This document shows, one piece after another, positions 6,966 to 33,086 of a stretch of DNA of 64,000 bases (the stretch's first letter is position 1; each line of letters starts with the position of its first letter). Both the position numbers and the translations under genes were made by a program. A model generated the notes under the pieces. The model was given only the letters and a program-made list of their open reading frames with translations, did not search any database and was not told where the DNA came from. The DNA is from Amycolatopsis sp. cg9 (GTDB lineage Bacteria; Actinomycetota; Actinomycetes; Mycobacteriales; Pseudonocardiaceae), in assembly GCF_041346945.1 (NCBI RefSeq), contig NZ_CP166850.1:5688501-5752500 (forward strand), given 5' to 3'.

Positions 6966-9206
6966 TCACGCCAGCTCGGCCCGCACCTCCGCCGCCGCGG
7001 CCACCAGGTTGCGCAGCGCCGGTTCCACCTCCGCGTACCCGCGCGTCTTCAGGCCGCAGTCCGGGTTCACCCACACCCGCGAAGCCGGCACCGCACCCAC
7101 CGCCGTTCGCAGCGAAGCCGCCACCTCGCCGGCCGGAGGCACGCGGGGCGAGTGGATGTCGTACACCCCCGGGCCCACGCCGCGGGTGAAGCCGGCCGCG
7201 TCGAGGTCCGCCAGCACCTCCATCTTCGAGCGGGCCGCCTCGATCGACGTGACGTCCGCGTCCAGCGCGTCGATCGCCGGCAGGACCTCGCCGAACTCCG
7301 AATAGCACATGTGCGTGTGGATCTGGGTCGCGTCGGCGATCCCCGACGTCGCCAGCCGGAACGCCGAAACCGCCCACGCGAAGTACTCCGAGTGGGCAGA
7401 ACGCCGCAGCGGCAGCAGTTCCCGCAGCGCCGGCTCGTCGACCTGGACGATCCGGATGCCCGCCGCCTCCAGGTCGTGGACTTCGTCGCGGATCGCCAGC
7501 GCCACCTGCCGCGCCGTCTCGGCCAGTGGCTGGTCGTCGCGGACGAACGACCACGCCAGGATCGTCACCGGGCCGGTCAGCATCCCCTTGACCGGCTTGC
7601 GCGTCAGGCTCTGCGCGTACCGGGCCCACGAAACGGTCATCGGCGCCGGCCGCGAGACGTCGCCGTAGAGGATCGGCGGGCGGACGCAGCGGGAACCGTA
7701 GGACTGCACCCAGCCGTGCGCGGTCGCGGCGAACCCGCTCAGCTGCTCGGCGAAGTACTGCACCATGTCGTTGCGCTCCGGCTCGCCGTGCACCAGCACG
7801 TCCAGTCCGAGCTCCTCCTGCAGCCGGACGACCCGCTCGACTTCGCGGCGCATCGCGGCGTCGTAACCGGCGTCGTCGAGCGTCCCCGCCCGGTGCGCCG
7901 CCCGCGCTCGGCGCACCTCCGGAGTCTGCGGGAACGAGCCGATCGTCGTGGTCGGCAGCGGTGGCAGGCCGAGCGCGGCCCGCTGCGCGGCGGCACGCTG
8001 TTCGTAGGGCGCCCGGGGTGCGGGCTCGAGCGCGGCCAGCCGGGCCCGGACGGCCGAATCGGCCAGGTCGGCCGCCGCCGCCCGGTCCGCGACCGTCGCC
8101 CGCGCCGCGGCCAGGTCCGGGGATTCGCCGCGCAGCGCACGCCCGAGCAGCACGACCTCGTCGACCTTCTGCCGCGCGAACGCGAGCCAGCTCTTCAGCC
8201 GCGGGTGCAGGTCTTCGCGCGAGACGTCGTAGGGCACGTGCAGCAGCGAGCACGACGTAGAGACGCTCACGGACTTCGCGACGCCGAGCAGCGTCGCAGC
8301 CTTGCTCAGCGCCCGGTGCGGGTCGGTCCGCCAGACGTTGCGCCCGTCGACGACGCCGGCGACGACCTCCTTGTCCCGCAACGCCGGCTCGGCCGCCACA
8401 GCATCCACAAAGGACTCGTCGCTGACCAGGTCGACGGCGAGCGCGTCGATCGGCGCGCGGGCCAGCGCGCCGAGCCCGCGGCCCAGCCCGCCGAAGTAGC
8501 CGGCCACCAGCAGCTTCGGCCGCGCCGTCGCCTTCCCGAGCCGGTGGTACGCGCGGATCAGCGCGTTCAGCTCGGCTTCGGTGCGGTCGGCGGCGAACGC
8601 GGGCTCGTCGAGCTGGACCCACTCCGCGCCCGCGTCGTGCAGCTTCGCCAGGAGATCGACGTAGCGGGGGAGCAGCGCGTCGAGCAGGTCCAGCGGGGCG
8701 AACCCGCCGGTGCCCTTGGCCAGCAGCAGGAACGTGACCGGGCCGAGGAGCACCGGCCGCGTCTCGATCCCGAGCGCGCGGGCCTCCCGGTACTCGTCGA
8801 GGGGCTTGGTCCCGGCGAGCGTGAACTCGGTGTCCGGGCCCAGCTCGGGGACGATGTAGTGGTAGTTCGTGTCGAACCACTTCGTCATTTCCAGCGCCGG
8901 CGCGTCCTGGACGCCCCGCGCGGCGGCGAAGTACGTGTCGAGCGGCGAAAGACCCGGCCGGGCGGGCAGCGCGCCGAACAGCTCGGCGGTGTCGAGCACG
9001 TGGTCGTAGTGCGAGAACGTGTTGGACGGGATCGAGTCCAGCCCGGCGTCCCGCAGTTCGCGCCAGGTGCGTTCACGCAGGTCCCGGCCGGTGGCGAGCA
9101 ACGCGCCCGCGTCGATCCTGCCCGCCCAGTAGCGCTCGAGGGCGCGTTTGAGCTCCCGGTCCGGGCCGATCCGGGGGTAGCCGAGCACAGTGGTGCCGAT
9201 GGTCAC
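6966..9206 (-). CDS. metE: Cobalamin-independent methionine synthase
   Basis: 746 residues, the normal MetE length. It transfers the methyl group of 5-methyltetrahydropteroyl-triglutamate to homocysteine, making methionine without B12. Both halves are present: the N-terminal domain begins [19 protein letters not shown] and the catalytic half carries [23 protein letters not shown], and the C-terminal zinc-site cysteine in [12 protein letters not shown]. The GTG at 9206 is preceded by GAGGAGAG and starts exactly at the conserved N-terminus, so the open frame upstream is leader. The leader contains a cobalamin riboswitch (9318-9500), so B12 is expected to switch the gene off, implying that a B12-dependent synthase exists elsewhere. 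Confidence 0.97.
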
Positions 9207-9214
9207 AGCTCTCT

Positions 9215-9285
9215 CCTCGCGAGCTAGTCCGAAGAGCCCGGACGCGCGCGAAGGCGAGCGTTTCGGTCGTGCCCATCCCGCGAGG
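9215..9285 (-). promoter_or_regulatory. Candidate Shine-Dalgarno sequestering pair of metE leader
   Basis: Read on the minus strand, the metE ribosome binding region contains CGCGAGG (plus-strand 9215-9221), and about 60 bases upstream lies its exact complement CCTCGCG (plus-strand 9279-9285). Pairing would mask the ribosome binding site. As this segment lies between the riboswitch aptamer and the start codon, it is a plausible expression platform that inhibits translation when cobalamin is bound. The pairing is seen; the switching is inferred. Confidence 0.4.
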
Positions 9286-9317
9286 CCCGGACTCGCGCAC
9301 GCCGTCGGCGTCCGCAC

Positions 9318-9500
9318 CACGGGCAGGTCTTCGGACTCGTGGGCGAACCGCTCGCGCCTACCGGCCGTCGCTTCCCAAGCTCACGCTCAGTGCTTCTTGA
9401 CGGCTTTCGTTCCCACTCACCGCTGCGGGGCAGTCCCGGATTCGCACCGGGTTCCCTGTTGCCTCCCCGGGACGTCGACAGCCCGGCCCGGGGAACCAGT
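9318..9500 (-). ncRNA. Cobalamin (B12) riboswitch
   Basis: On the minus strand the conserved blocks occur in order: GGGAACCCGGTGCGAATCC near 9456-9438, then ACTGCCCCGCAGCGG, GGGAACGAAAGCC, CACTGAG, GGGAAGCGACGG, and the B12 box GTCCGAAGACCTGCC at 9336-9322. This is the canonical aptamer layout. It lies 112 bases upstream of metE and reads toward it. The rest of the 9501-9694 stretch, upstream of the aptamer and beyond the nrdB terminator, shows no gene; it should hold the metE promoter. Confidence 0.95.
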
Positions 9501-9694
9501 GGCGCGGCCGAGTCTAGGACATCGCCCGGGCGGGCGGTACCGGGCGAGAGCCCGGGTTCGGATCGGCACCGCGGTGGCCGAAGGCGGGCGTCCGGCACGA
9601 GGTGTGCGGCCGGACCGGTGAAGTCCTCCTCGCGAGTGGCGGGCCCGAACCGCCCGCCGGTCGTGACGCCGCCCGCAAGTACGCCCCGGGCATG

Positions 9695-9732
9695 AAAAAG
9701 CCCGGCCACGCCGACAGCGGCGTGACCGGGCT
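9695..9732 (-). terminator. Rho-independent terminator of nrdAB
   Basis: On the minus strand a 15-bp stem (AGCCCGGTCACGCCG pairing with CGGCGTGGCCGGGCT, one G-U pair) with a CTGT loop is followed by TTTT. It begins 14 bases after the nrdB stop codon, so it ends the nrdAB transcript. Confidence 0.9.
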
Positions 9733-9745
9733 CAGTACGGGGGAC

Positions 9746-10819
9746 TCAGTCCCAGTCGAGGGCGCCGCCCGACTGGTACTCGATGACGCGGGTCTCGAAG
9801 AAGTTCTTCTCCTTCTTCAGGTCCATCGCCTCGGACATCCACGGGAACGGGTTCTCGGTCTCACCGAAGATCGGGGCGAGGCCGATCTGCTGCGCGCGGC
9901 GGTCGGTGATGAAGTGCATGTACTGCTCGCACAGCTGCGCCGAGAGGCCGAGCATGCCGCGCGGCATCGTGTCGCGCGCGTAGTTGACCTCGAGCTCGCA
10001 CGCCTCCTTCAGCATGCCGCGCACCTCCTCCTGGAACTCGGGAGTCCACAGGTGCGGGTTCTCGATCTTGATCTGGTTGATGCAGTCGATGCCGAAGTTC
10101 AGGTGGATCGACTCGTCGCGCAGGATGTACTGGTACTGCTCGGCGATGCCGACCATCTTGTTCCGGCGGCCCAGCGACAGGATCTGCGCGAAGCCGGTGT
10201 AGAACCACATGCCCTCGAAGATCACGTAGAACGCGACGAGGTCGCGCAGGAACGCCTGGTCGGCCTCCGGCGTACCGGTCTCGAAGTCCGGGTTCTCCAG
10301 GTTCTGCGTGTACTTCAGCGCCCACGCGTCCTTGTCCGAAATGGACGGGACCTCGCGGTACATGTTGAACAGCTCGCCCTCGACCAGGCCGAGGCTCTCG
10401 CAGATGTACTGGAAGGTGTGCGTGTGCACGGCTTCCTCGAACGCCTGGCGCAGCAGGTACTGGCGGCACTCGGGGTTGGTGATCTGCCGGTACACCGCGA
10501 GCACGATGTTGTTGGCCACCAGGGACTCCGCGGTCGCGAAGAAGCCCAGGTTGCGCTTGAGCATCTGCCGCTCGTCCTCGGTGAGGCCGTCCGGCGACTT
10601 CCACAGCGCGATGTCGGCCTGCATGGCGACCTCGGTCGGCATCCAGTGGTTGTTGCAGCCGGCCAGGTACTTCTCCCACGCCCACTTGTACTTCATGGGC
10701 AGCAGCTGGTTGACGTCGGCGCGCGCGTTGATCATGCGCTTGTCGTCGACGTTGATCCGGGCGGCGCCGACCTCGATCTCCCCGAGGCCGGTCGCGTCCG
10801 TCGTCTCCACGTTGGTCAT
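9746..10819 (-). CDS. nrdB: Ribonucleotide reductase small subunit, class Ic-like
   Basis: 357 residues of the R2 family, which houses the dimetal cofactor that starts radical chemistry in the large subunit. The metal ligands are visible: E98 in ATAESL, E129 and H132 in EEAVHTHTF, and the second E-x2-H pair in RDESIHLNF. Aligning EAVHTHTF with the E. coli ETIHSRSY segment puts phenylalanine (F136) where class Ia enzymes have the radical tyrosine, and glutamate (E98) where E. coli has the first aspartate ligand. Both are the signature of class Ic enzymes such as that of Chlamydia, which use Mn/Fe without a tyrosyl radical. Its start follows AAAGGA, 16 bases after nrdA. Confidence 0.95.
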
Positions 10820-24771: not shown

Positions 24772-25379
24772 CCGGCGTCCGCGAACCCCAGCAGGAACGC
24801 AGCCGCACCACGCGGCGGCGGCTGATCGAGGCCGCGCTCGACAGCTTCGGCGAGCGCGGCTGGCACGGCGTCACGGTGGCCGGGATCGCCGAGCGGGCCG
24901 GCGTGTCCCGCGGCGCCGCCCAGCACCACTTCCCGGCCCGCGAGGACCTCGTGGTGGCGGCGGTCGACCTGCTCGGCCAGTCGCAGATCGACGAGCTGCG
25001 GGCCCAGGCCGCAGACCTGCCGACGGGCGCGTCCCGGATCGAGCGCGTCGTGGAGATGGTGCTGAACCTCTACACCGGGCCGCTGTTCCGCGCGGCCCTG
25101 CAGCTCTGGTCGGTCGCGGCGACCGACGACGCCCTGCGGGACGTGCTGGTCCCGCTGGAGGCGAGGGTCGGCCGGGAGGCGCACCGGGTCACGGTGGAAC
25201 TCCTGGGCGTCGACGAGTCCCGGCCGGGCGTGCGCGAACTGGTCCAGGCCACCCTGGACCTCGGCCGCGGCCTGGGCCTGGCGAACCTGCTGACCGACGA
25301 CACCCGGCGGCGCAAGCAGATCGTGCGGGAGTGGGCGCGGGCGCTGGAACTGCGGCTCGCGGTCACCGGAAGCGCCTGA
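24768..25379 (+). CDS. TetR/AcrR family transcriptional regulator
   Basis: 203 residues. The N-terminal helix-turn-helix is plain (RLIEAALDSFGERGWHGVT, then IAERAGVSRGAAQHHFPAREDL); the remainder is an all-helical ligand-binding domain. The TTG start at 24768 overlaps the SDR stop by four bases, making the regulator the last gene of the acyl-CoA catabolic operon. I infer that it represses that operon through the palindrome at 15523-15540, with an acyl-CoA intermediate as inducer. Its 3' end overlaps the convergent PNP-NB-ARC gene by 17 bases. Confidence 0.9.
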   Translation: MTGVREPQQERSRTTRRRLIEAALDSFGERGWHGVTVAGIAERAGVSRGAAQHHFPAREDLVVAAVDLLGQSQIDELRAQAADLPTGASRIERVVEMVLNLYTGPLFRAALQLWSVAATDDALRDVLVPLEARVGREAHRVTVELLGVDESRPGVRELVQATLDLGRGLGLANLLTDDTRRRKQIVREWARALELRLAVTGSA

Positions 25380-28300
25380 GGTCTTCGCGGGCACCCGTGG
25401 TTTCGAGGTGCTCGGGTCCGAGGACGCGGTCCAGGTCCGGCAGCAGGAGTTCGAGCGCCGCCACGGCGCCCGTCCGGTCCCCGGTTTCGCCGCGCAGGGT
25501 GGCGAGGGTGTGGCGAGCCGTCAGCGTGGTGGGGTGCTCCGGCCCGAGAACGCGGTCCAGTTCCGGTACGAGGTCCGCCGAGGACGCCAGCGCTCCCGCC
25601 GGATCCCCGGCCCAGCTCCGGAAGCGCGCCAGGTTGTGGCGGGCGGTCAGCGCGTACGGGCTCCCGGGCCCGAACACACGGCCCAGGTCCGGCAGCATCC
25701 CCTCGACGACCGCCACCGCGCCCGCCGGGTCGCCGGCCTTCGCCCGCAGTGCCGCGAGGTGGTGCCGAGCGGTGAAGGTGTCGGGGTGATCGGGGCCCAG
25801 CACGCGCAGCTGGTCCCGGAGCACCGCTTCGGCCGCCGCCGCGGCCGCTGCCGGATCCCCGCTGATCCCCCGGAACCAGGCGAGCTTCAAACGGGTGCTC
25901 AACGTGACCGGGTGCTCGGGGCCGAGCACCCGCCGCAGGTCCTCCGACAGGGGTTCGAGGTCGGCGAGGCCGGCGGGGTCGCCGGAGCCGGCGCGCAGCT
26001 CGGCGAGCGCCCCGCGGGTGATCAGGGTCGTGGGGTGCTCGGGCCCGAGCACCGGCAGCAGGTCCGGCAGCAGGTTTTCGTAGGCCGCCACCGCTGCGGC
26101 GACGTCCCCCGCCTCGCCCCGCAAGCTGGCCAGCGTGCCGCGAGCGGTCAGGGTGTCGGGGTGGTGCGGCCCGAGCGCGGCCTGGCGCTCCCGGACGGAA
26201 CGCTCCAGCATCGCGATGGCCCCGGCCGAGTCACCGGTGCCGTCCCGCATGACGGCCAGGTTGAGCCGGGTGGCCGAAGTGGCCTGGTGTTCGGGACCGA
26301 GCACCCGCTCCAGTTCCGGGAGCAGGGTTTCGTAGACCGCCGCCGCCCCGGCGAAGTTCCCCGATTGGCCCAGGTACCGGGCCAGGGTGCTGCGGGCGGT
26401 CAAGGTGAGCTGGTGCGGCCGCCCCGGCGTCGCGTCGAGGTCGGCCAGCAGGGCGCTCAGCGCGGCCACCGCCGCCCGCGGATCGCCCGCGGTGCCCACG
26501 GAATCCGCCAGGTCGTGCCGGGCGATCAAGGTGTCGAGGTGGGCCGCGCCGAGCCGGTCCGCGGCGGTGCGGGACAACTGCCGGAAGTACGCGACCGCCG
26601 CCCCGGCCTGCCCGCTCTCGCGGAGACTCCGGCCCGCTTGGACCAGCACCACGTGGTACCCCCGGCGCCAGAGCTGCTCGACGTCACCGGTGGCCTGCAG
26701 CGCGAAAGTGCCGCGCCGCAACGCCTGCGCCAGCGTCCGGTCCGACTCGATCTCCGGCCACGCCTGCGCCAGCGCGTCCGCGGCGGCCCGCGTGATCCGG
26801 GAAAGGTGCTTCGGGCGCAGGTCGTCCCGGGCCGCGCGCTGGACGAGCGCGTGGACGCGGACCGTCTGCGGGTCGAGGGTGACGAGGTTCAGCCGGTGCA
26901 GGCAGCCCAGCGCGTCGCGGGCGTCGTCCGGGGTCACCCGCCGCCGGGCGGCTTTGCGCAGGAAGTCCAGGACGGCCGGTGCGGTGAGCACGGTGTACGG
27001 GATGCCGTGGGGATCGAGGACGCTCGCGAACCGCAGCAGCGGGCCGGCCAGCCGGGCGGGTTCGAGACGGTCTGCGTGGGCGATCGACAGGGACCAGGTC
27101 GCCGTCACCGTCGCCTGGTGGTCGTCGGGGAGGCTGCGCCGCTCGGGCAGGACCGCGGCCAGCTTGCGCTCCCGGAACCGCAGCCGGTACGCCGAGCAGG
27201 GGAGGTCGCGGTCGAGGACGTACGCCGTGGCCTGGGCCAGCGCCAGGGGCAGGTGCCCGAGGTCGTCCGCCAGCCCGGCGACGTCGTCGGCCAGGTGCGG
27301 CCGGCCGGCGAGCTTGCGGTTCAGGTACGCGCGGGACTCCGCGAGGGTGAACTGGCCGACGTCGACGATCCGCCGCCGGTCGCCGGCGAACGCGGCGTCG
27401 CGCCGCCGGGTGGTGAGCACGACCCGCCCGGCTTCGGCCGGCGGTGGCCAGAGTCCGTGCAGGTCAGCGGGGTGCTGCACGTCGTCGAGCACCAGCAGCC
27501 AGCGCTTCGGGGTCGTGGCCAGCCAGTCCAGGAGGCGGCGCGCGCCCTGCGCGGGGTCCGGGTCCTCGATGCCGGTGAGCGTCTTCGCCAGCTGTGCGTA
27601 GGCCGTCAGGAGCGCGTCACGGGACTCCGCCGTGATCCAGGCCAGCAGGTCGACTTCGCGGGCGGCCCACGCGCGTTCCGCCAGGTCCGCGGCCAGCTGC
27701 GTCTTGCCGACGCCGCCCAGCCCGGACAGCACCGTGGTGCCGGCGAACGTGACTTCGCGGTCCTGGAAGCCGTCCGCGCGGACGGGGACCACGCCGGACC
27801 GGTGCGGCCAGCTCAGGCCCGTCGTGACCCCGCCCGGCCGGGCCGGGATTTCGACGGCGACGGCCAGCGCGAACGCGGCGGCGTGCGCGGCCGCGGCGGC
27901 GTGCGCGCCCCCGTCGCCGATGCCCCGGACGGTCAGCACCGGCAAGCCGTGGTTGAGGTGGCCGGCCTTGGCGACGCCCGCGCTTTCCAGCTCGATCGCG
28001 GCGGCGTCGTCGTAGGTGGTGCGCAGCTGTTCGGCCAGCGGTGCGGTGCGGGAGCCGAGCACGACTTCCCCGGCGGCGATCGGCCGGAAGTGCACCGACG
28101 GCCGCGGTGCGGGGGAGTCCGGGAGCCAGCTCTCCTCCCGGGCGACGTGCCGGGCGAGCTGGTCGAGGTGGTGCGGGATCTCCCAGGCCTGCGGCCGGGT
28201 CCGGAAGCCGTCGTCGTCGGCCTTGCCGCCGTGGTAGCCGTAGACCTTGGTCGCCACGACGACGTCCCCGGGGGCGAGGTCGTCGTGGAGCGCCCCCGCG

Positions 28301-28542
28301 ATGCCGGCGAACACCAGCGCGCTGGGCGCGAAGGTGGCGATGGCGCGTTCGGTGAGGACGGCGGCGCCCTGGTTGCCCTGGCCGGTGAGCGCGAGGACGA
28401 TCGTGGCTCCGCCGGTGATCGGTTCGCCCACTTCGAACCGCGTGCCCGAGGGGTGCGTCGTCACCCGGCGGCCGGTCAGCAACGCCCGCACCGCCGCGTA
28501 TTCCACCTCCAGCGCGGTCAGCACCACGACGGTGGTGGTCAC
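25363..28542 (-). CDS. PNP-NB-ARC-TPR protein (NLR-like STAND ATPase)
   Basis: 1059 residues in three parts. Residues 1-233 are a nucleoside phosphorylase/MTAN domain (VVVLTALEVEYAAV, GIAGALHDDLAPGDVVV, IELESAG with E184/E186, and the putative catalytic D210 in RGIGD). Residues about 255-560 are an NB-ARC ATPase: Walker A GLGGVGKT (274-281), Walker B WLLVLDDV (348-355), VVLTTRR sensor and HLPLAL. The rest is about ten tetratricopeptide units of ~42 residues with the recurring LGPEHPTTLTARxxLA. This is the effector-switch-sensor plan of NLR proteins. The GTG overlaps the stop of the PNP gene upstream (GTGA). The PNP loop after D210 is 11 residues shorter than in the neighbour. Confidence 0.93.
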   Translation of the reverse strand: MTTTVVVLTALEVEYAAVRALLTGRRVTTHPSGTRFEVGEPITGGATIVLALTGQGNQGAAVLTERAIATFAPSALVFAGIAGALHDDLAPGDVVVATKVYGYHGGKADDDGFRTRPQAWEIPHHLDQLARHVAREESWLPDSPAPRPSVHFRPIAAGEVVLGSRTAPLAEQLRTTYDDAAAIELESAGVAKAGHLNHGLPVLTVRGIGDGGAHAAAAAHAAAFALAVAVEIPARPGGVTTGLSWPHRSGVVPVRADGFQDREVTFAGTTVLSGLGGVGKTQLAADLAERAWAAREVDLLAWITAESRDALLTAYAQLAKTLTGIEDPDPAQGARRLLDWLATTPKRWLLVLDDVQHPADLHGLWPPPAEAGRVVLTTRRRDAAFAGDRRRIVDVGQFTLAESRAYLNRKLAGRPHLADDVAGLADDLGHLPLALAQATAYVLDRDLPCSAYRLRFRERKLAAVLPERRSLPDDHQATVTATWSLSIAHADRLEPARLAGPLLRFASVLDPHGIPYTVLTAPAVLDFLRKAARRRVTPDDARDALGCLHRLNLVTLDPQTVRVHALVQRAARDDLRPKHLSRITRAAADALAQAWPEIESDRTLAQALRRGTFALQATGDVEQLWRRGYHVVLVQAGRSLRESGQAGAAVAYFRQLSRTAADRLGAAHLDTLIARHDLADSVGTAGDPRAAVAALSALLADLDATPGRPHQLTLTARSTLARYLGQSGNFAGAAAVYETLLPELERVLGPEHQATSATRLNLAVMRDGTGDSAGAIAMLERSVRERQAALGPHHPDTLTARGTLASLRGEAGDVAAAVAAYENLLPDLLPVLGPEHPTTLITRGALAELRAGSGDPAGLADLEPLSEDLRRVLGPEHPVTLSTRLKLAWFRGISGDPAAAAAAAEAVLRDQLRVLGPDHPDTFTARHHLAALRAKAGDPAGAVAVVEGMLPDLGRVFGPGSPYALTARHNLARFRSWAGDPAGALASSADLVPELDRVLGPEHPTTLTARHTLATLRGETGDRTGAVAALELLLPDLDRVLGPEHLETTGAREDLRRFR

Positions 28543-29279
28543 GGGAGTTCGGCCGCGAGGGCGAAGGCGAAGGCCGCCGCGTTCGCCGCCGCGACGGGCT
28601 GCCAGCCGGCCTGGTCGGCGGCGTGCTTGTGGCCGTCGGCCTTGTCGCTGATGCCGCGGATCGCGACCACCGGCAGGCCGCGGTTGAGGTGGCCGGCCTT
28701 GGCGACGCCGGCGCTTTCCATCTCGATCGCGGCGGCGTCGTCGTAGGTGGCGCGCAGCTGTTCGGCCAGCGGGGTGGTGCGCGAGTTGAGCACGACCTCC
28801 CCGGCGGCGATCGGCCGGAAGTGCACCGGCGGCCGGCGCCCGGCCGGGAACCAGTCCTCTTCGCGCGCGACGTGCCGGGCGATCTGGTCGAGCTCGTACG
28901 GGATTTCCCACGCCTGCGGCCGGGCGCGGAACCCGCCGTCCTCGTCCTTGCCGCCGTGGTAGCCGTAGACCTTGGTCCCCACGACGACGTCGCCGGGCTC
29001 GAGGTCGTCGTGCAGGGCCCCGGCGACGCCGACGAACAGCAGCGCCCGCGGCGCGAACGAGGTGATCGCGCGCTCGGCGAGGATGGCGGACGCCTGGTTG
29101 CCCTGCCCGGTCAGCGCGACGACGGCCGAGCCCCGGCCGCGCGGCGGCCGGCCCACTTCGAAGCGGGTGCCCGACGGGTGGGTCTCCACCCGGCGCTCGG
29201 CCAGCAGCGCCCGGACGGCCGCGTACTCCACCTCCAGCGCGGTCAGCACCACGATCGTGGGTTCGGGAACGCTGTTCAC
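28539..29279 (-). CDS. MTA/SAH nucleosidase-like phosphorylase (stand-alone PNP domain)
   Basis: 246 residues, a complete PNP_UDP_1 domain that would cleave the N-glycosidic bond of a purine nucleoside or related nucleotide. Motifs align with E. coli MTAN: ALEVEYAAV near the N-terminus, IEMESAG (E186, M187, E188) for ribose contacts and RGISDKAD with catalytic D212. It is closely similar along its length to the first domain of the next gene, a tandem duplication, but keeps the full loop after SDKAD. The GTG at 29279 overlaps the Nudix stop (GTGA) and its own stop overlaps the next start (GTGA). The substrate is unknown: MTA, SAH, adenosine or ATP are options. Confidence 0.92.
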   Translation of the reverse strand: MNSVPEPTIVVLTALEVEYAAVRALLAERRVETHPSGTRFEVGRPPRGRGSAVVALTGQGNQASAILAERAITSFAPRALLFVGVAGALHDDLEPGDVVVGTKVYGYHGGKDEDGGFRARPQAWEIPYELDQIARHVAREEDWFPAGRRPPVHFRPIAAGEVVLNSRTTPLAEQLRATYDDAAAIEMESAGVAKAGHLNRGLPVVAIRGISDKADGHKHAADQAGWQPVAAANAAAFAFALAAELP

Positions 29280-30013
29280 GCGGTCTCGCTTTCTGCGTCG
29301 TCCAGGTTGTGCCCGCGCAGGATCGGCGGGTGCAGGACCGTCGCCGGGCCACGCCGGTAGAGCGCGGCGGGCCGGCCGCCGTCCCGGGTCGTGCGGTCGC
29401 CGGTGGGCACGAGGAACCCGGCCACCCCGGTGATCTTGCGGTGGAAGTTGCGGTGGTCGAGGCGGTGTCCCCAGACGATCTCGTAGACGCGCCGCAGCTC
29501 GCTGATCGTGAACTCGGCCGCGCAGAACGCCGCGGCCAGCGTCGTGTACTCGAGTTTGCCGCGCGCCCGCTCGACCGCGTCGGCGATGATCAGCCGGTGG
29601 TCGAAGGCGACCGGAGCGCCCGCGCGTTCGACGTCGGCGACCGGTTCCCAGCGCGCGGCGCGCGCGTCCCCGCCCGCCGACGGGATGGGCAGGTCCGGCA
29701 CCAGCGCCAGGTAGCACACGGTCACCACCCTCCCCCGAGGATCACGGTCCGGCCCGCCGTAGGTCCGCAACTGTTCCAGATGCAGCCGTTCGGACGCCAG
29801 GCCGGTCTCCTCGGCCAGCTCGCGGGCCGCGGCGACGTCGATGTCCTCGTCCTCGGTGGCGATGAACCCGCCGGGGAGCGCCAGCTGCCCGCGGTAGGGC
29901 TCCTCGGCCCGCTCGACGAGCAGGATGTTCAGCCGCTCTTCGCGGACGGTGAGGATCGCGAGGTCGACGGCGACCGCGACCTTCGGGATCTGCCATGTCG
30001 TCTCCTGGGGCAC
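29276..30013 (-). CDS. Nudix hydrolase with NrtR-like winged-helix domain
   Basis: 245 residues. The N-terminal Nudix domain has GGF at 48-50 and an intact RELAEETGL at 64-72 (one extra residue in the loop compared with the classic box). The C-terminal ~80 residues (FTISELRRVYEIVWGHRLDHRNFHRKI) match the winged helix of NrtR-type regulators, which bind DNA and sense ADP-ribose or related compounds. In many NrtR repressors the Nudix catalytic residues are lost; here they are kept, so the protein could both hydrolyse and regulate. GTG start; no strong ribosome site. It heads the trio and faces repeats that look like its operator. Confidence 0.88.
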   Translation of the reverse strand: MPQETTWQIPKVAVAVDLAILTVREERLNILLVERAEEPYRGQLALPGGFIATEDEDIDVAAARELAEETGLASERLHLEQLRTYGGPDRDPRGRVVTVCYLALVPDLPIPSAGGDARAARWEPVADVERAGAPVAFDHRLIIADAVERARGKLEYTTLAAAFCAAEFTISELRRVYEIVWGHRLDHRNFHRKITGVAGFLVPTGDRTTRDGGRPAALYRRGPATVLHPPILRGHNLDDAESETA

Positions 30014-30031
30014 GGCACCAGCCTAGCTTCA

Positions 30032-30098
30032 TGTCAGCTTGACGCAAAGTCGGCTCGGGTCTTAACCTGATCGCAGTTAGTGTCAAATCGACGAAAAG
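30032..30098. promoter_or_regulatory. Twin 18-bp repeats with divergent promoters
   Basis: Two direct repeats of pattern TGTCA-N4-GACG-N-AAAG lie at 30032-30049 and 30081-30098; each also contains an imperfect palindrome (TGTCA-N3-TGACG and TGTCA-N3-CGACG). The first supplies a plus-strand -35 TTGACG (30039-30044), 18 bases before TAACCT (30063-30068). The second supplies a minus-strand -35 TTGACA (30086-30081), 16 bases before TAAGAC (30064-30059). So each repeat overlaps the -35 of one promoter. The Nudix/NrtR-like protein is the likely binder. Confidence 0.6.
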
Positions 30099-30105
30099 GG
30101 CTGTG

Positions 30106-30216
30106 ATGTGTGTGCACCTGCCGGTCCCGCTCGCCTTCGAGCCGGCCGCCGTCCTCCTGCTCGCCGGGCCGGCCCGCGGGTTCCGCCTCGCCCCCGCCTG
30201 CCCGGGAGGCCGGTGA
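30106..30216 (+). CDS. Possible 36-residue leader peptide
   Basis: ATG at 30106 follows AAAAGGG by six bases and opens a frame of 36 codons (MCVHLPVPLAFEPAAVLL...) ending TGA at 30214-30216, three bases before the next ATG. It starts about 31 bases after the predicted transcription start, so ribosomes would meet it first. It may couple translation to the HTH-nSTAND gene or be a hydrophobic micropeptide. It matches no family I know, and in GC-rich DNA such a frame could be chance. Confidence 0.3.
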   Translation: MCVHLPVPLAFEPAAVLLLAGPARGFRLAPACPGGR

Positions 30217-30219
30217 GCC

Positions 30220-31788
30220 ATGCCGCGCGCTGAGAACCCCCTCGACCTCGACGGCTCCCCGCTGACGGCGTTCGCGGCCGGCCTGCGGGCGCTGCGGGAG
30301 CACGCCGGGAACCCGACCTACCGCGAACTGGCGCGGCGGGCGCACTTCTCCGCCACCACGCTGTCCGACGCCGCGGGCGGGCGCCGGCTGCCGAGCCTGG
30401 CGGTGACCCTCGCCTACGTCCGCGCTTGCGACGGCGACGACGCCGAGTGGGAACGCCGCTGGCGCGCGACGGCGGCCGAGCTGACCACCCCGGCCCCGGC
30501 GGGCGAAACCGCGCCCTACCGCGGGCTCGACGCCTACGACCGCGAGGACGCCGGGTTCTTCTTCGGCCGGGACCGGCTCCTCGACACCCTGACCGCGCTG
30601 CTCCCGTCGCACCGGTGCGTGGTCGTGACCGGCCCGTCCGGTTCCGGGAAGACGTCGCTCCTGCGCGCCGGCCTGCTCCCGCGGCTGAGCGGCCCCGTCG
30701 TCTTCACCACCCCGGCCACCGCCGGGGACCTGCTCGCCGGGCCGGAAGCGGCGGTGGTCGTCCTCGACCAGTTCGAAGAGCTGTTCGCGCTCGGCCGCGA
30801 CGACGAGCGGGCGCGGTCCGTCACGGCGTTGCTCGCGGCCCGCGGCGGGCCGCGGGTGGTGCTCGCCGTGCGCGCGGACTTCGAGGACCGCTGCGCCGGG
30901 CTGCCTGGCGTGAGCGCCGCCCTCGCGCGGGCCCGGGTGGTGGTCGGGCCGATGACCGCCGACGAACTGCGCCGGGCGATCACCACCCCGGCGGCACGCG
31001 CGCGGTGCATGGTCGAGACGCCGTTGCTGACCACGGCCGTCGCGCTCGCGCACGGCCGGCCCGGGGCGCTGCCGTGGCTGTCGCACGCGTTGCTCGAGAC
31101 GTGGCGGCGCCGCAGCGGCAGCCGGTTGACCCTCGCGGGGTTCCAGGCGGCGGGGGAGCTCGGCGGGCCACTGGCCGGCGCGGCGGAAGCCGTGTTCACC
31201 GGGCTCGGCACGGCCGGGCAGGCCGTCGCACTGGACCTGTTCCGCCGGCTCGCCGACCCCGAAGAAGGTCCCACGGCCGTCGCCGACGGCGAACTCGACG
31301 ACACCCCGCTCACCGCCGACGTCGTCGGCCGGTTCGTCCGCGCCCGGGTGCTCGTGCGCGACGCCCACCGGCTCCGGCTCGCCCACGAGGCGGTGCTCGA
31401 CGCCTGGCCGCGCCTCGACGGCCGGCCCGGCGGCGCGGGGTGGCGCACCCACCGCGACCTCACCCGGGCGGCCGCCACCTGGCGGCTCCACCACCGCGAC
31501 CCGAGCCTGCTCCTGCGCGGCGCGCACCTCGCCGCCGTCCGCGCGTGGGCCCGGCACCCGCGGTACCTCACCACCCACGAGCGGGCCTACCTCGACGCCA
31601 GCACCGCCGCCGGGACCCGGCCCCGCCCGGGCTGGCCGGGACGGCACATCGCGGTGCTCGCGGCCGCGCTCCTGCTCTCGGTCCCGGCCCGGGTGGACAG
31701 CGGCGTGGCCGGCTGCGGGCCCCCGTCGGCCACCGCGGTGTCGTCCGGACCTTTGTCGTCCGGCGCGCCGGACAACGCCGAGCGCTGA
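30220..31788 (+). CDS. HTH (XRE)-nSTAND1 ATPase, lacking a repeat domain
   Basis: 522 residues: an XRE-like helix-turn-helix (about 14-70, YRELARRAHFSATTLSDAAGGRRLPSL region), then an nSTAND1 ATPase with FFFGRDRLLDTL, Walker A GPSGSGKT (138-145), Walker B VVVLDQFEE (179-187) and the winged-helix-like segment ending near HPRYLTTHERAYLDAS. A hydrophobic segment at about 476-491 and a short Ser/Pro tail end the protein. Most relatives continue into WD40 repeats that sense the trigger; none are present here. GGGAGG precedes the ATG by nine bases. It is divergent from the Nudix-PNP-NLR trio and likely belongs to the same system. Confidence 0.9.
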   Translation: MPRAENPLDLDGSPLTAFAAGLRALREHAGNPTYRELARRAHFSATTLSDAAGGRRLPSLAVTLAYVRACDGDDAEWERRWRATAAELTTPAPAGETAPYRGLDAYDREDAGFFFGRDRLLDTLTALLPSHRCVVVTGPSGSGKTSLLRAGLLPRLSGPVVFTTPATAGDLLAGPEAAVVVLDQFEELFALGRDDERARSVTALLAARGGPRVVLAVRADFEDRCAGLPGVSAALARARVVVGPMTADELRRAITTPAARARCMVETPLLTTAVALAHGRPGALPWLSHALLETWRRRSGSRLTLAGFQAAGELGGPLAGAAEAVFTGLGTAGQAVALDLFRRLADPEEGPTAVADGELDDTPLTADVVGRFVRARVLVRDAHRLRLAHEAVLDAWPRLDGRPGGAGWRTHRDLTRAAATWRLHHRDPSLLLRGAHLAAVRAWARHPRYLTTHERAYLDASTAAGTRPRPGWPGRHIAVLAAALLLSVPARVDSGVAGCGPPSATAVSSGPLSSGAPDNAER

Positions 31789-31821
31789 ACCTGTGCTCAC
31801 CGGAACCGGGGAGGGACCGCT

Positions 31822-31864
31822 GAAGGGGACTTTCCTCCGATGTGACGGGAGGAAAGTCCCCTTC
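31822..31864. repeat. Perfect 17-bp inverted repeat (REP-like or terminator)
   Basis: GAAGGGGACTTTCCTCC (31822-31838) and its exact complement (31848-31864) flank a 9-nt loop, 33 bases after the HTH-nSTAND stop. No T-run follows. A further partial copy of one arm (ACGTCCCCTTCGG) occurs about 25 bases downstream (near 31880-31893), which suggests a repetitive intergenic element rather than only a terminator. Confidence 0.6.
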
Positions 31865-32014
31865 GGCACGTCAGATGAGCGCAACGTCCCCTTCGGCCGC
31901 ACCGGACCCGGTGGAACCTCGGCCGCACCCGAAACGTCATAGTGCCGTAAGTAACACAATCGGCCCAACGGGCGAATGACTATGCGTAGTGGTTCCGAGG
32001 AGAAAGGCAATCCG

Positions 32015-32300: not shown

Positions 32301-33086
32301 TCAGCTGTTCCCGAGCTCCGCTTCGCGCCGGGTGAGCACGCGGGGAGCGTCTTCGGTGACGGCGACCGTGTGCTCGGAGTGGGCGGTGCGGGAGCCGTCG
32401 GCCGAGCGGATGGTCCAGCCGTCGGGGTCGAAGACGATCCGGTCGGTCGTGCGCGCGAACCAGGGCTCGAGCGCCAGGGTCAGGCCCGGCCGCAGCTTCA
32501 TCCCGCGCCCGGCCGTGCCCTTGTTGGGGACGTGCAGGTCCTCGTGCATGGTGCGGCCGATGCCGTGGCCGCCGAACTCGGTGTTGACCGGGTAGCCGTA
32601 CTCGCGGGCCACCGCCTCGATCGCCGCCGAGATGTCGCCCAGCCGGTTGCCGGGGCGGGTCACCTCGATCGCCGCTTCCAGTGCTTCCTCGGTGGCGCGG
32701 ACGATCCGCAGGTCTTCCTCGGCGGGCGTGCCGACGATGACCGTGCGCGCCGAGTCGGCCGCCCAGCCGTCGATGCTGACCGCGAGGTCGGCGGTGAGCA
32801 CGTCGCCGTCGCGCAGCACGTAGTCGTGCGGCAGGCCGTGCAGGACGGCGTCGTTGACCGACAGGCAGATGACGTTGCGGAACGGGCCCTTGCCGAAGGA
32901 CGGCGCGTAGTCCCAGTAGCACGACTCCGCCCCGCGCCGCTTGATCATGCCGCGGGCGTGGTGCTCGAGGTCCATGAGGTTGACGCCCACGTCGGCGAGC
33001 CGGCCGACCTCGGTCAGCACCTCGGCGACGAAGCGCCCGGTCACGTGCATGCGGTCGATCTCCGCCGGCGACTTCAGTTCGATCAC
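32301..33086 (-). CDS. map: Methionine aminopeptidase, type I
   Basis: 261 residues. It removes the N-terminal methionine of new proteins. All five metal ligands can be assigned: the Asp of TADLAV and of AADSART, His in FGGHGIGRTMHE, Glu in LALEPWF and Glu in AHSEHTVAV. The starting GTG follows GAGG by seven bases. It has no secretion pump or translation genes next to it, unlike the housekeeping map copy in the ribosomal protein region, so this may be an additional paralogue. The promoter region contains twin GGTAT-N4-ATACC boxes, implying regulated expression. Confidence 0.95.
   Translation of the reverse strand: MIELKSPAEIDRMHVTGRFVAEVLTEVGRLADVGVNLMDLEHHARGMIKRRGAESCYWDYAPSFGKGPFRNVICLSVNDAVLHGLPHDYVLRDGDVLTADLAVSIDGWAADSARTVIVGTPAEEDLRIVRATEEALEAAIEVTRPGNRLGDISAAIEAVAREYGYPVNTEFGGHGIGRTMHEDLHVPNKGTAGRGMKLRPGLTLALEPWFARTTDRIVFDPDGWTIRSADGSRTAHSEHTVAVTEDAPRVLTRREAELGNS

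Follow-up and report, generated by a model that had tools for sequence, protein, structure and literature searches.

The window analysed here is the 64,000-nucleotide stretch of Amycolatopsis sp. cg9 given above (G000:C1:5688501-5752500, host genome 10.6 Mb), and its subject is a four-gene cassette within it. According to domain scans, a minus-strand trio encodes a Nudix protein, a free PNP and a PNP-NB-ARC-TPR protein, and an HTH-nSTAND1 ATPase is encoded divergently. The PNP domain that opens the NB-ARC-TPR protein is a degenerate, likely inactive copy, and its possible role as a link between receptor and effector is the main concern of this report. The inserted segment and its features are the following:

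25359..31908, no strand: inserted segment (approximate), not present in G039 (L183) and G052 (L184), where about 190-290 bp of different sequence stands in its place.
25363..28542, minus strand: PNP-NB-ARC-TPR fusion, 1059 residues, with a GTG start in a 4-base overlap with the free PNP stop (Pfam PNP_UDP_1, NB-ARC, TPR_12).
27847..28542, minus strand: degenerate (pseudo-)PNP domain, residues 1-232 of the fusion, fold kept in the predicted model.
27901..27927, minus strand: site of the active-site loop loss, RGIGD|GGAH, 11 residues short of the free PNP and with Ser changed to Gly in all four orthologues; the exact register of the gap depends on the alignment.
26803..27750, minus strand: NB-ARC switch with P-loop GLGGVGKT, limits approximate (the Pfam NB-ARC match covers residues 271-384).
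25366..26800, minus strand: TPR array (TPR_12/TPR_10), limits approximate.
28539..29279, minus strand: free PNP, 246 residues, MTAN/futalosine-hydrolase fold (PNP_UDP_1), without a C-terminal tail; predicted active effector.
28599..28658, minus strand: intact loop RGISDKADGHK... of the free PNP, residues 208-227, with Asp212 aligned to the ISD Asp of MTANs.
29276..30013, minus strand: NrtR-like regulator, Nudix plus winged helix, 245 residues (domain scan).
29798..29872, minus strand: what we take, from the general Nudix consensus, to be the Nudix box, with the REL-EE core kept.
30026..30050, no strand: predicted operator 1, a perfect palindrome CTTNNNGTC-N5-GACNNNAAG, just 5' of the Nudix start.
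30075..30099, no strand: predicted operator 2, an imperfect copy of the same palindrome, from a sequence search.
30220..31788, plus strand: HTH_31 and nSTAND1 ATPase, 522 residues, divergent, part of the same insertion as the trio.

Both junctions of the trio are GTGA overlaps, and 206 bp separate the Nudix gene from the nSTAND1 gene. The preliminary description of this DNA had proposed a Nudix, PNP and PNP-NB-ARC-TPR trio overlapping by four bases at each junction and facing a second STAND ATPase, and in both respects the architecture is confirmed. The likely start of the fused gene is the GTG at 28542; a listed open reading frame of 1329 residues from 29352 opens with out-of-frame sequence. 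At the three orthologous loci (L031-L033) gene order and strand are the same, with 4-base overlaps at both junctions as read from the coordinates. Since four genomes share this order and these overlaps, an origin of the tandem PNPs as a frame or assembly artefact was rejected. Codon-position G+C content and ratios of nonsynonymous to synonymous substitution (dN/dS) of 0.20-0.53 across the four genomes show that the cassette consists of real genes under selection. The fusion has, by its Pfam domains, the composition of an NLR-like NB-ARC STAND receptor, namely an N-terminal domain, an NB-ARC and superstructure-forming repeats. A sigma-70 consensus scan of the region between the Nudix and nSTAND genes found no promoter.

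The two PNPs are 75-77% identical over their aligned part and had been described as the same nucleosidase. In all four orthologues, however, the fused PNP has RGIGD and falls 11 residues short at that point; all 12 other PNPs of a first comparison have RG[IV]SD. Among 43 other PNPs, 72 alignment columns are at least 90% conserved. All four fused copies deviate at five of these, each within residues 211-227 of the free PNP numbering (Ser211, Ala214, Gly216, Lys218 and Gln227 are lost), and at least one fused copy deviates at nine; the four free copies all deviate at two conserved columns, 101 and 128, and at least one of them at five. A database search found 128 proteins, of which 120 were listed and 119 could be aligned as far as the loop; among these 119 the deletion occurs only in P0006-P0008, the window protein and two orthologue clusters, P0008 being the cluster named from A. 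lexingtonensis. Asp197 and Glu12 are catalytic residues of MTAN and are named as mutated in PDB titles, and in the alignment the loop Asp of the free PNP falls on the ISD Asp of these enzymes. By sequence and model, then, the free PNP combines the PNP fold with conserved active-site residues, and the fused PNP lacks the conserved loop that follows the catalytic Asp.

The fold itself is retained in the predicted model, and so are most of the other conserved positions. Predicted as single chains, each PNP copy alone, the fused domain gave an MTAN fold with a mean predicted local distance difference test score (pLDDT) of 91.5 and a predicted template-modelling score (pTM) of 0.90, and the free PNP a mean pLDDT of 91.7; in structure searches MTAN and futalosine hydrolase rank first for both models. 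Across the four genomes dN/dS was 0.20 for the free PNP, 0.37 for the fused PNP domain, 0.20 for Nudix, 0.30 for NB-ARC, 0.34 for TPR and 0.53 for nSTAND, with 0.08 and 0.10 for two flanking genes, so that the fused domain is under purifying selection, though weaker than that on the free PNP. In the tree the free and fused PNPs form separate clades, which places the duplication before the split of the four species; no firm sister order was obtained among the free, fused, P0010, L035 and L036 PNPs. With the active-site loop lost in all four carriers, the view of the two PNPs as the same kind of enzyme is unsupported, and the fused PNP is likely inactive. The search for other tandem pairs of free and pseudo-PNP returned only that of this genome, both in 297 genomes of the family (nine candidates scored in each) and in 394 of the class (seven in each), the genomes being evenly drawn. 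As side observations, the Asp appears to have been lost independently in other long PNP-bearing proteins, changing to Gly in P0078, P0102 and P0106, to Glu in P0118 and to Asn in P0013, which makes these possible further pseudo-PNPs, and the synonymous divergence (dS) of the TPR array is about twice that in the rest of the fused gene (0.415 against 0.19-0.21), perhaps through exchange between repeats.

In most relatives of the window locus a matching pair of motifs appears to couple the PNP to its neighbour. Of 87 distinct pairs, 78 show similarity between the C-terminal tail of the PNP and the N-terminus of the next protein at p <= 0.05, 62 of them at the floor set by 1000 shuffles. From this test 33 of 122 PNP rows were dropped for want of a tail of 20-200 residues or of a suitable downstream gene, the window's own among them, and counts are given as distinct because duplicate genome copies are present (e.g. 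L127/L131 and L128/L150). When six loci were compared crosswise, cognate scores were 55-84 and non-cognate scores 19-39, except for L038 with L139 (54-55), which share one motif class. This pairing of tail and N-terminus resembles that of amyloid-signalling motifs. Matching motifs occur in genome G003 (L035) and at another locus of the window's own genome (L036), where a tailed PNP accompanies a 1280-residue NACHT-like protein without a Nudix gene. The G003 cassette has a single PNP but the same order as the window, with nSTAND divergent from Nudix, a tailed PNP and a motif-NB-ARC-TPR protein. The free PNP of the window stops at the end of its domain, with no PUASM- or BASS-like tail motif, and at the N-terminus of the NB-ARC protein, where the relatives carry the motif, stands the degenerate PNP. 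These two facts together gave rise to the docking proposal considered below.

The Nudix protein scores 70.9 bits against NUDIX and 59.4 bits against NrtR_WHD, both above cut-off, giving it the domains of an NrtR-like protein; against NCBIfam NtrR it scores 139.5 bits, the cut-off being 400. The motif GTC-N5-GAC was present in 97 of 115 regions upstream of Nudix genes (93 of 110 distinct ones), whereas among 4480 random windows the figure was 10.8% and among 2300 shuffles 7.7%. Its consensus approximates CTTNNNGTC-N5-GACNNNAAG, and most copies stand at the same spacing from the start codon. The strict palindrome occurs at two places in the 10.6 Mb genome, before the window Nudix gene and before the L040 module, that is, before PNP modules only and not before NAD genes, and a control with the reversed pattern gave none. 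Two palindromes also stand at matching offsets in L031, L032, L033 and L035. The idea that the Nudix protein is a regulator is supported by these predicted operators ahead of its own operon, an arrangement expected of an NrtR. As both palindromes lie between the Nudix and nSTAND genes, a single repressor could act on the whole set of four, and the cassette is probably under the control of a shared regulator.

Beyond the window, Nudix and PNP form the core of a widespread actinobacterial module. A search of 80 Amycolatopsis genomes gave 50 PNP matches at E <= 1e-40; an NrtR-like Nudix gene lies no more than 3 kb from 48 of them and no more than 1 kb from 47. If the two PNPs of the trio are counted once, 44 of 46 PNP loci have a nearby Nudix gene; in one of these 44, in G065, it lies 2.8 kb off, in front of another PNP gene. 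Conversely, 44 of 84 Nudix matches are near a PNP and 40 are not near any listed PNP. A wider search for named actinobacterial loci started from nine PNPs, of which L034 and L036 lack a Nudix gene; because all nine came from Amycolatopsis the sample is tilted to close relatives. In the best 80 of its 377 confirmed candidates, Nudix lies within 6 kb of the PNP in 72, a partner gene of 650-700 residues in 69, both in 68, NB-ARC in four and nSTAND1 in none. The 650-700-residue protein is probably the usual partner of the Nudix-PNP pair (L038:7153-9261, L043:10192-12231 and the 69 loci within L051-L130); no Pfam match was found in the two proteins scanned, hydrophobic stretches number one to four by a simple count, and the tail of the preceding PNP often has its match in a motif at the N-terminus. 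On the mobilizable plasmid pLBRS of Streptomyces sp. M54, Nudix, PNP and a relative of this partner stand in a row, the last sharing 36% identity with the L043 partner across 650 residues. In P0051, P0065 and P0087, among the 120 listed proteins, Nudix, NrtR_WHD and PNP are joined in a single chain according to precomputed Pfam annotation. The nearest PNP-NB-ARC proteins are P0009 and P0010. As further observations, a PNP with an intact RGISD loop is joined directly to TPRs without NB-ARC in G048 (L034:8671-10122), and a TIR-macro gene adjoins a PNP gene related to the window's in G181 (L181:10041-11150 and 8587-9966), with a similar arrangement suggested in L182. The NrtR family, together with the TIR-macro gene of G181, offers a hint of NAD (nicotinamide adenine dinucleotide) or ADP-ribose chemistry.

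The cassette itself is rare. The trio was found in four of 80 Amycolatopsis genomes, always at one site. The prospect that its genes might be syntenic in all Amycolatopsis was checked and did not hold. Of 24 genomes of the genus in which the flanking TetR gene was located, two are carriers, and in 21 of the other 22 the TetR gene and a 73-residue gene are adjacent, as confirmed in longer stretches for 12 of the 21; the exception, L170, showed no 73-residue gene. The G003 cassette sits elsewhere, no flanking gene of the window being matched in L035 or L195. Besides the window, only the three orthologues and G003 showed the nSTAND gene, the G003 copy being absent from the results of a cross-genome search that scored 18 candidates per genome; its role as a general part of Nudix-PNP modules was rejected (0 of the 80 named loci within 6 kb). 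With 443 bits from the window side, the G003 nSTAND is the best non-orthologue compared, the next reaching 377. Beside nSTAND, L031:6292-7586, L032:6046-7340 and L033:6214-7502 hold an extra gene pair of about 290 and 140 residues that is not found in the window, the smaller gene in L031 matching peptidase inhibitor I36. An M24 peptidase gene (32301-33086) lies near the cassette in the four carriers and was unmatched in the empty-site stretches L183-L194; a 72% relative of it lies near the PNP in L181. A cobalamin riboswitch at 9305-9515 of the window (102.9 bits) has no relation to the cassette.

The reading that we favour, with somewhat less than even confidence, is that the cassette is a variant of a widespread Nudix-regulated PNP conflict module, in which the pseudo-PNP pairs with the live PNP on the NB-ARC-TPR receptor and the Nudix protein is an autorepressor. 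The free PNP, an MTAN-like nucleosidase, would be the effector, presumably acting on a purine substrate. The TPRs of the receptor would sense a trigger and its NB-ARC would oligomerise; the N-terminal pseudo-PNP could then use the PNP oligomer interface to pair with the free PNP, which it would gather or activate, a link that in the relatives would be made by the homotypic tail motif. The Nudix protein would repress the operon and the nSTAND gene from the two palindromes between them and probably leave the DNA on binding an ADP-ribose-type ligand, and the cell could then lose a pool of purine nucleotides or nucleosides and stop growing. A broader proposal is more doubtful: that in this bacterial NLR-like receptor a catalytically dead duplicate of the effector enzyme has taken over the coupling role of a homotypic, amyloid-type motif, joining PNP oligomers and so bringing the live PNP to the NB-ARC assembly, and that the system is one of a large group of PNP modules that share an operator and are repressed by Nudix. 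Gene structure, Nudix linkage, the palindrome, the loss of the loop from a domain whose modelled fold persists, the insertion and the motif pairing of relatives are computed results on which both proposals draw.

Several observations weigh against this interpretation. In L040, L051 and P0010 a single-gene PNP-NB-ARC-TPR protein has its active-site loop intact, so that docking is not a necessary role for a fused PNP. The fused PNP of the window retains its Asp (in RGIGD) and conserved Glu residues and the register of its gap is alignment-dependent, so that it may keep some activity. The PNP models are of single chains, and the tail motif is not universal, nine of the 87 pairs being not significant. 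The G003 nSTAND scores 442 bits to the window's and 437 to that of L219, and at L035:6603-8456 it reads GPSGSGTS where the window has GPSGSGKT, so that the P-loop Lys is missing; given the near-tie and this loss, a common origin of the window and G003 nSTAND genes is suggested only. Finally, the flanks scanned hold metabolic, transport and cell-wall genes and no defence island. The earlier proposal of a conflict module thus stands as regards mobility, through the empty site, the few carriers, the G003 cassette elsewhere and the plasmid relative, and finds no backing in the gene neighbourhood.

Other explanations account for part of the same evidence. The pseudo-PNP may be a sensor for a purine ligand or an integrated decoy for a phage protein that targets PNPs, with the free PNP acting independently. 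A loss concentrated at the active-site loop in a domain that keeps its fold, the faster evolution of the fused domain (dN/dS 0.37 vs 0.20) and the separate clades all suit such a decoy; yet in the nearest relatives the receptor N-terminus is an effector-coupling motif and not a sensor, and the TPRs already offer a sensor surface, so we consider this unlikely. Both PNPs could instead be active, the fused enzyme with a re-shaped site and another substrate and the free copy as a second effector. Retention of the RGIGD Asp and of Glu in the conserved (L/M)ES motif would fit, as would the known intact-loop fusions, but the disappearance from all four carriers of five residues at least 90% conserved in 43 PNPs makes it, in our judgement, slightly less probable again.

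A metabolic role, with an NrtR-type Nudix protein controlling a nucleosidase for NAD or methylthioadenosine/futalosine salvage and the STAND proteins as signalling partners, draws on the best-ranked folds (MTAN and futalosine hydrolase) and on the NrtR family. It is hard to reconcile with the patchy distribution and empty site, the NB-ARC and NACHT partners, the related module on a plasmid and the restriction of the strict palindrome to PNP modules. Precomputed Pfam accessions further show family PNPs fused to TIR, STAND and other domains, two of the accessions being presumably a protease and a kinase, and we regard a metabolic role as improbable. An orthologue (P0008) is named by NCBI as an FxSxx-COOH accessory protein of ribosomally synthesized and post-translationally modified peptides (RiPPs), and the window protein does reach the equivalog score of NCBIfam FxSxx_TPR (392 bits, cut-off 300). 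Such systems carry a radical SAM maturase and an FxsA precursor alongside. The match is limited to residues 265-1056, and the eight flanking window proteins scanned contain no radical SAM domain, a scan that a small precursor could escape; as the name stems from the NB-ARC-TPR part alone, this explanation was rejected as very improbable.

If pairing of the pseudo-PNP with the free PNP is correct, a receptor would recruit an enzyme effector through a dead duplicate of that enzyme, without amyloid or death-fold adaptors, and coupling devices would be interchangeable within one type of cassette. The Nudix-operator-PNP core provides a sequence handle (operator and two genes) for collecting the widespread PNP modules of actinomycetes, and it ties PNP effectors to a probable sensor of the ADP-ribose type. 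No description of a Nudix-PNP module or a pseudo-PNP receptor was found in a literature search that was thin on subscription journals.

PADLOC matched the cassette to no described anti-phage system; in partial matches, both PNPs hit a PN-superfamily effector and PDC-M60C, nSTAND weakly matched mad8/mad3, and Nudix had no match. Detocs is a three-gene two-component system with a PNP-family effector, for which nucleotide depletion is reported (PMC11249213); it shares with the cassette the effector family and the depletion that is proposed here, but membership was rejected since a Pfam scan of the four cassette proteins shows neither a kinase nor a receiver domain. The activity that marks Detocs is the splitting of ATP into adenine and ribose-5'-triphosphate. 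PNPase-superfamily effectors have been proposed in NTP-dependent conflict systems of multicellular prokaryotes, which are centred on vWA/MoxR and GTPase proteins and, in the accessible part of that account, lack a Nudix-PNP pair, unlike the window (PMC7159879). The NrtR of M. smegmatis, whose target is NAD+ synthesis, recognizes the palindrome GTTTTCGA-N7-TCGAAAAC; it resembles the present protein as a Nudix-related regulator with a palindrome ahead of its own gene, and the palindrome differs from the window's (PMC6800001). In the Bell/NLR pairs of BASS families, found from their Bell effectors, a C-terminal motif of the effector is repeated at the N-terminus of its neighbour (PMC8086366), as in the relatives of the window, whereas the window locus itself has no motif. 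Another parallel is fungal: PNP_UDP effectors with a PUASM amyloid motif are encoded beside NACHT NLRs, and PNP also serves as an NLR N-terminal domain (PMC9815663). A PNP effector gene beside an NLR, and a match of C- and N-terminal motifs, are common to those pairs and the window's relatives; the present system is bacterial, has a Nudix regulator with a predicted operator and, in the window, replaces the motif with a degenerate PNP on the receptor.

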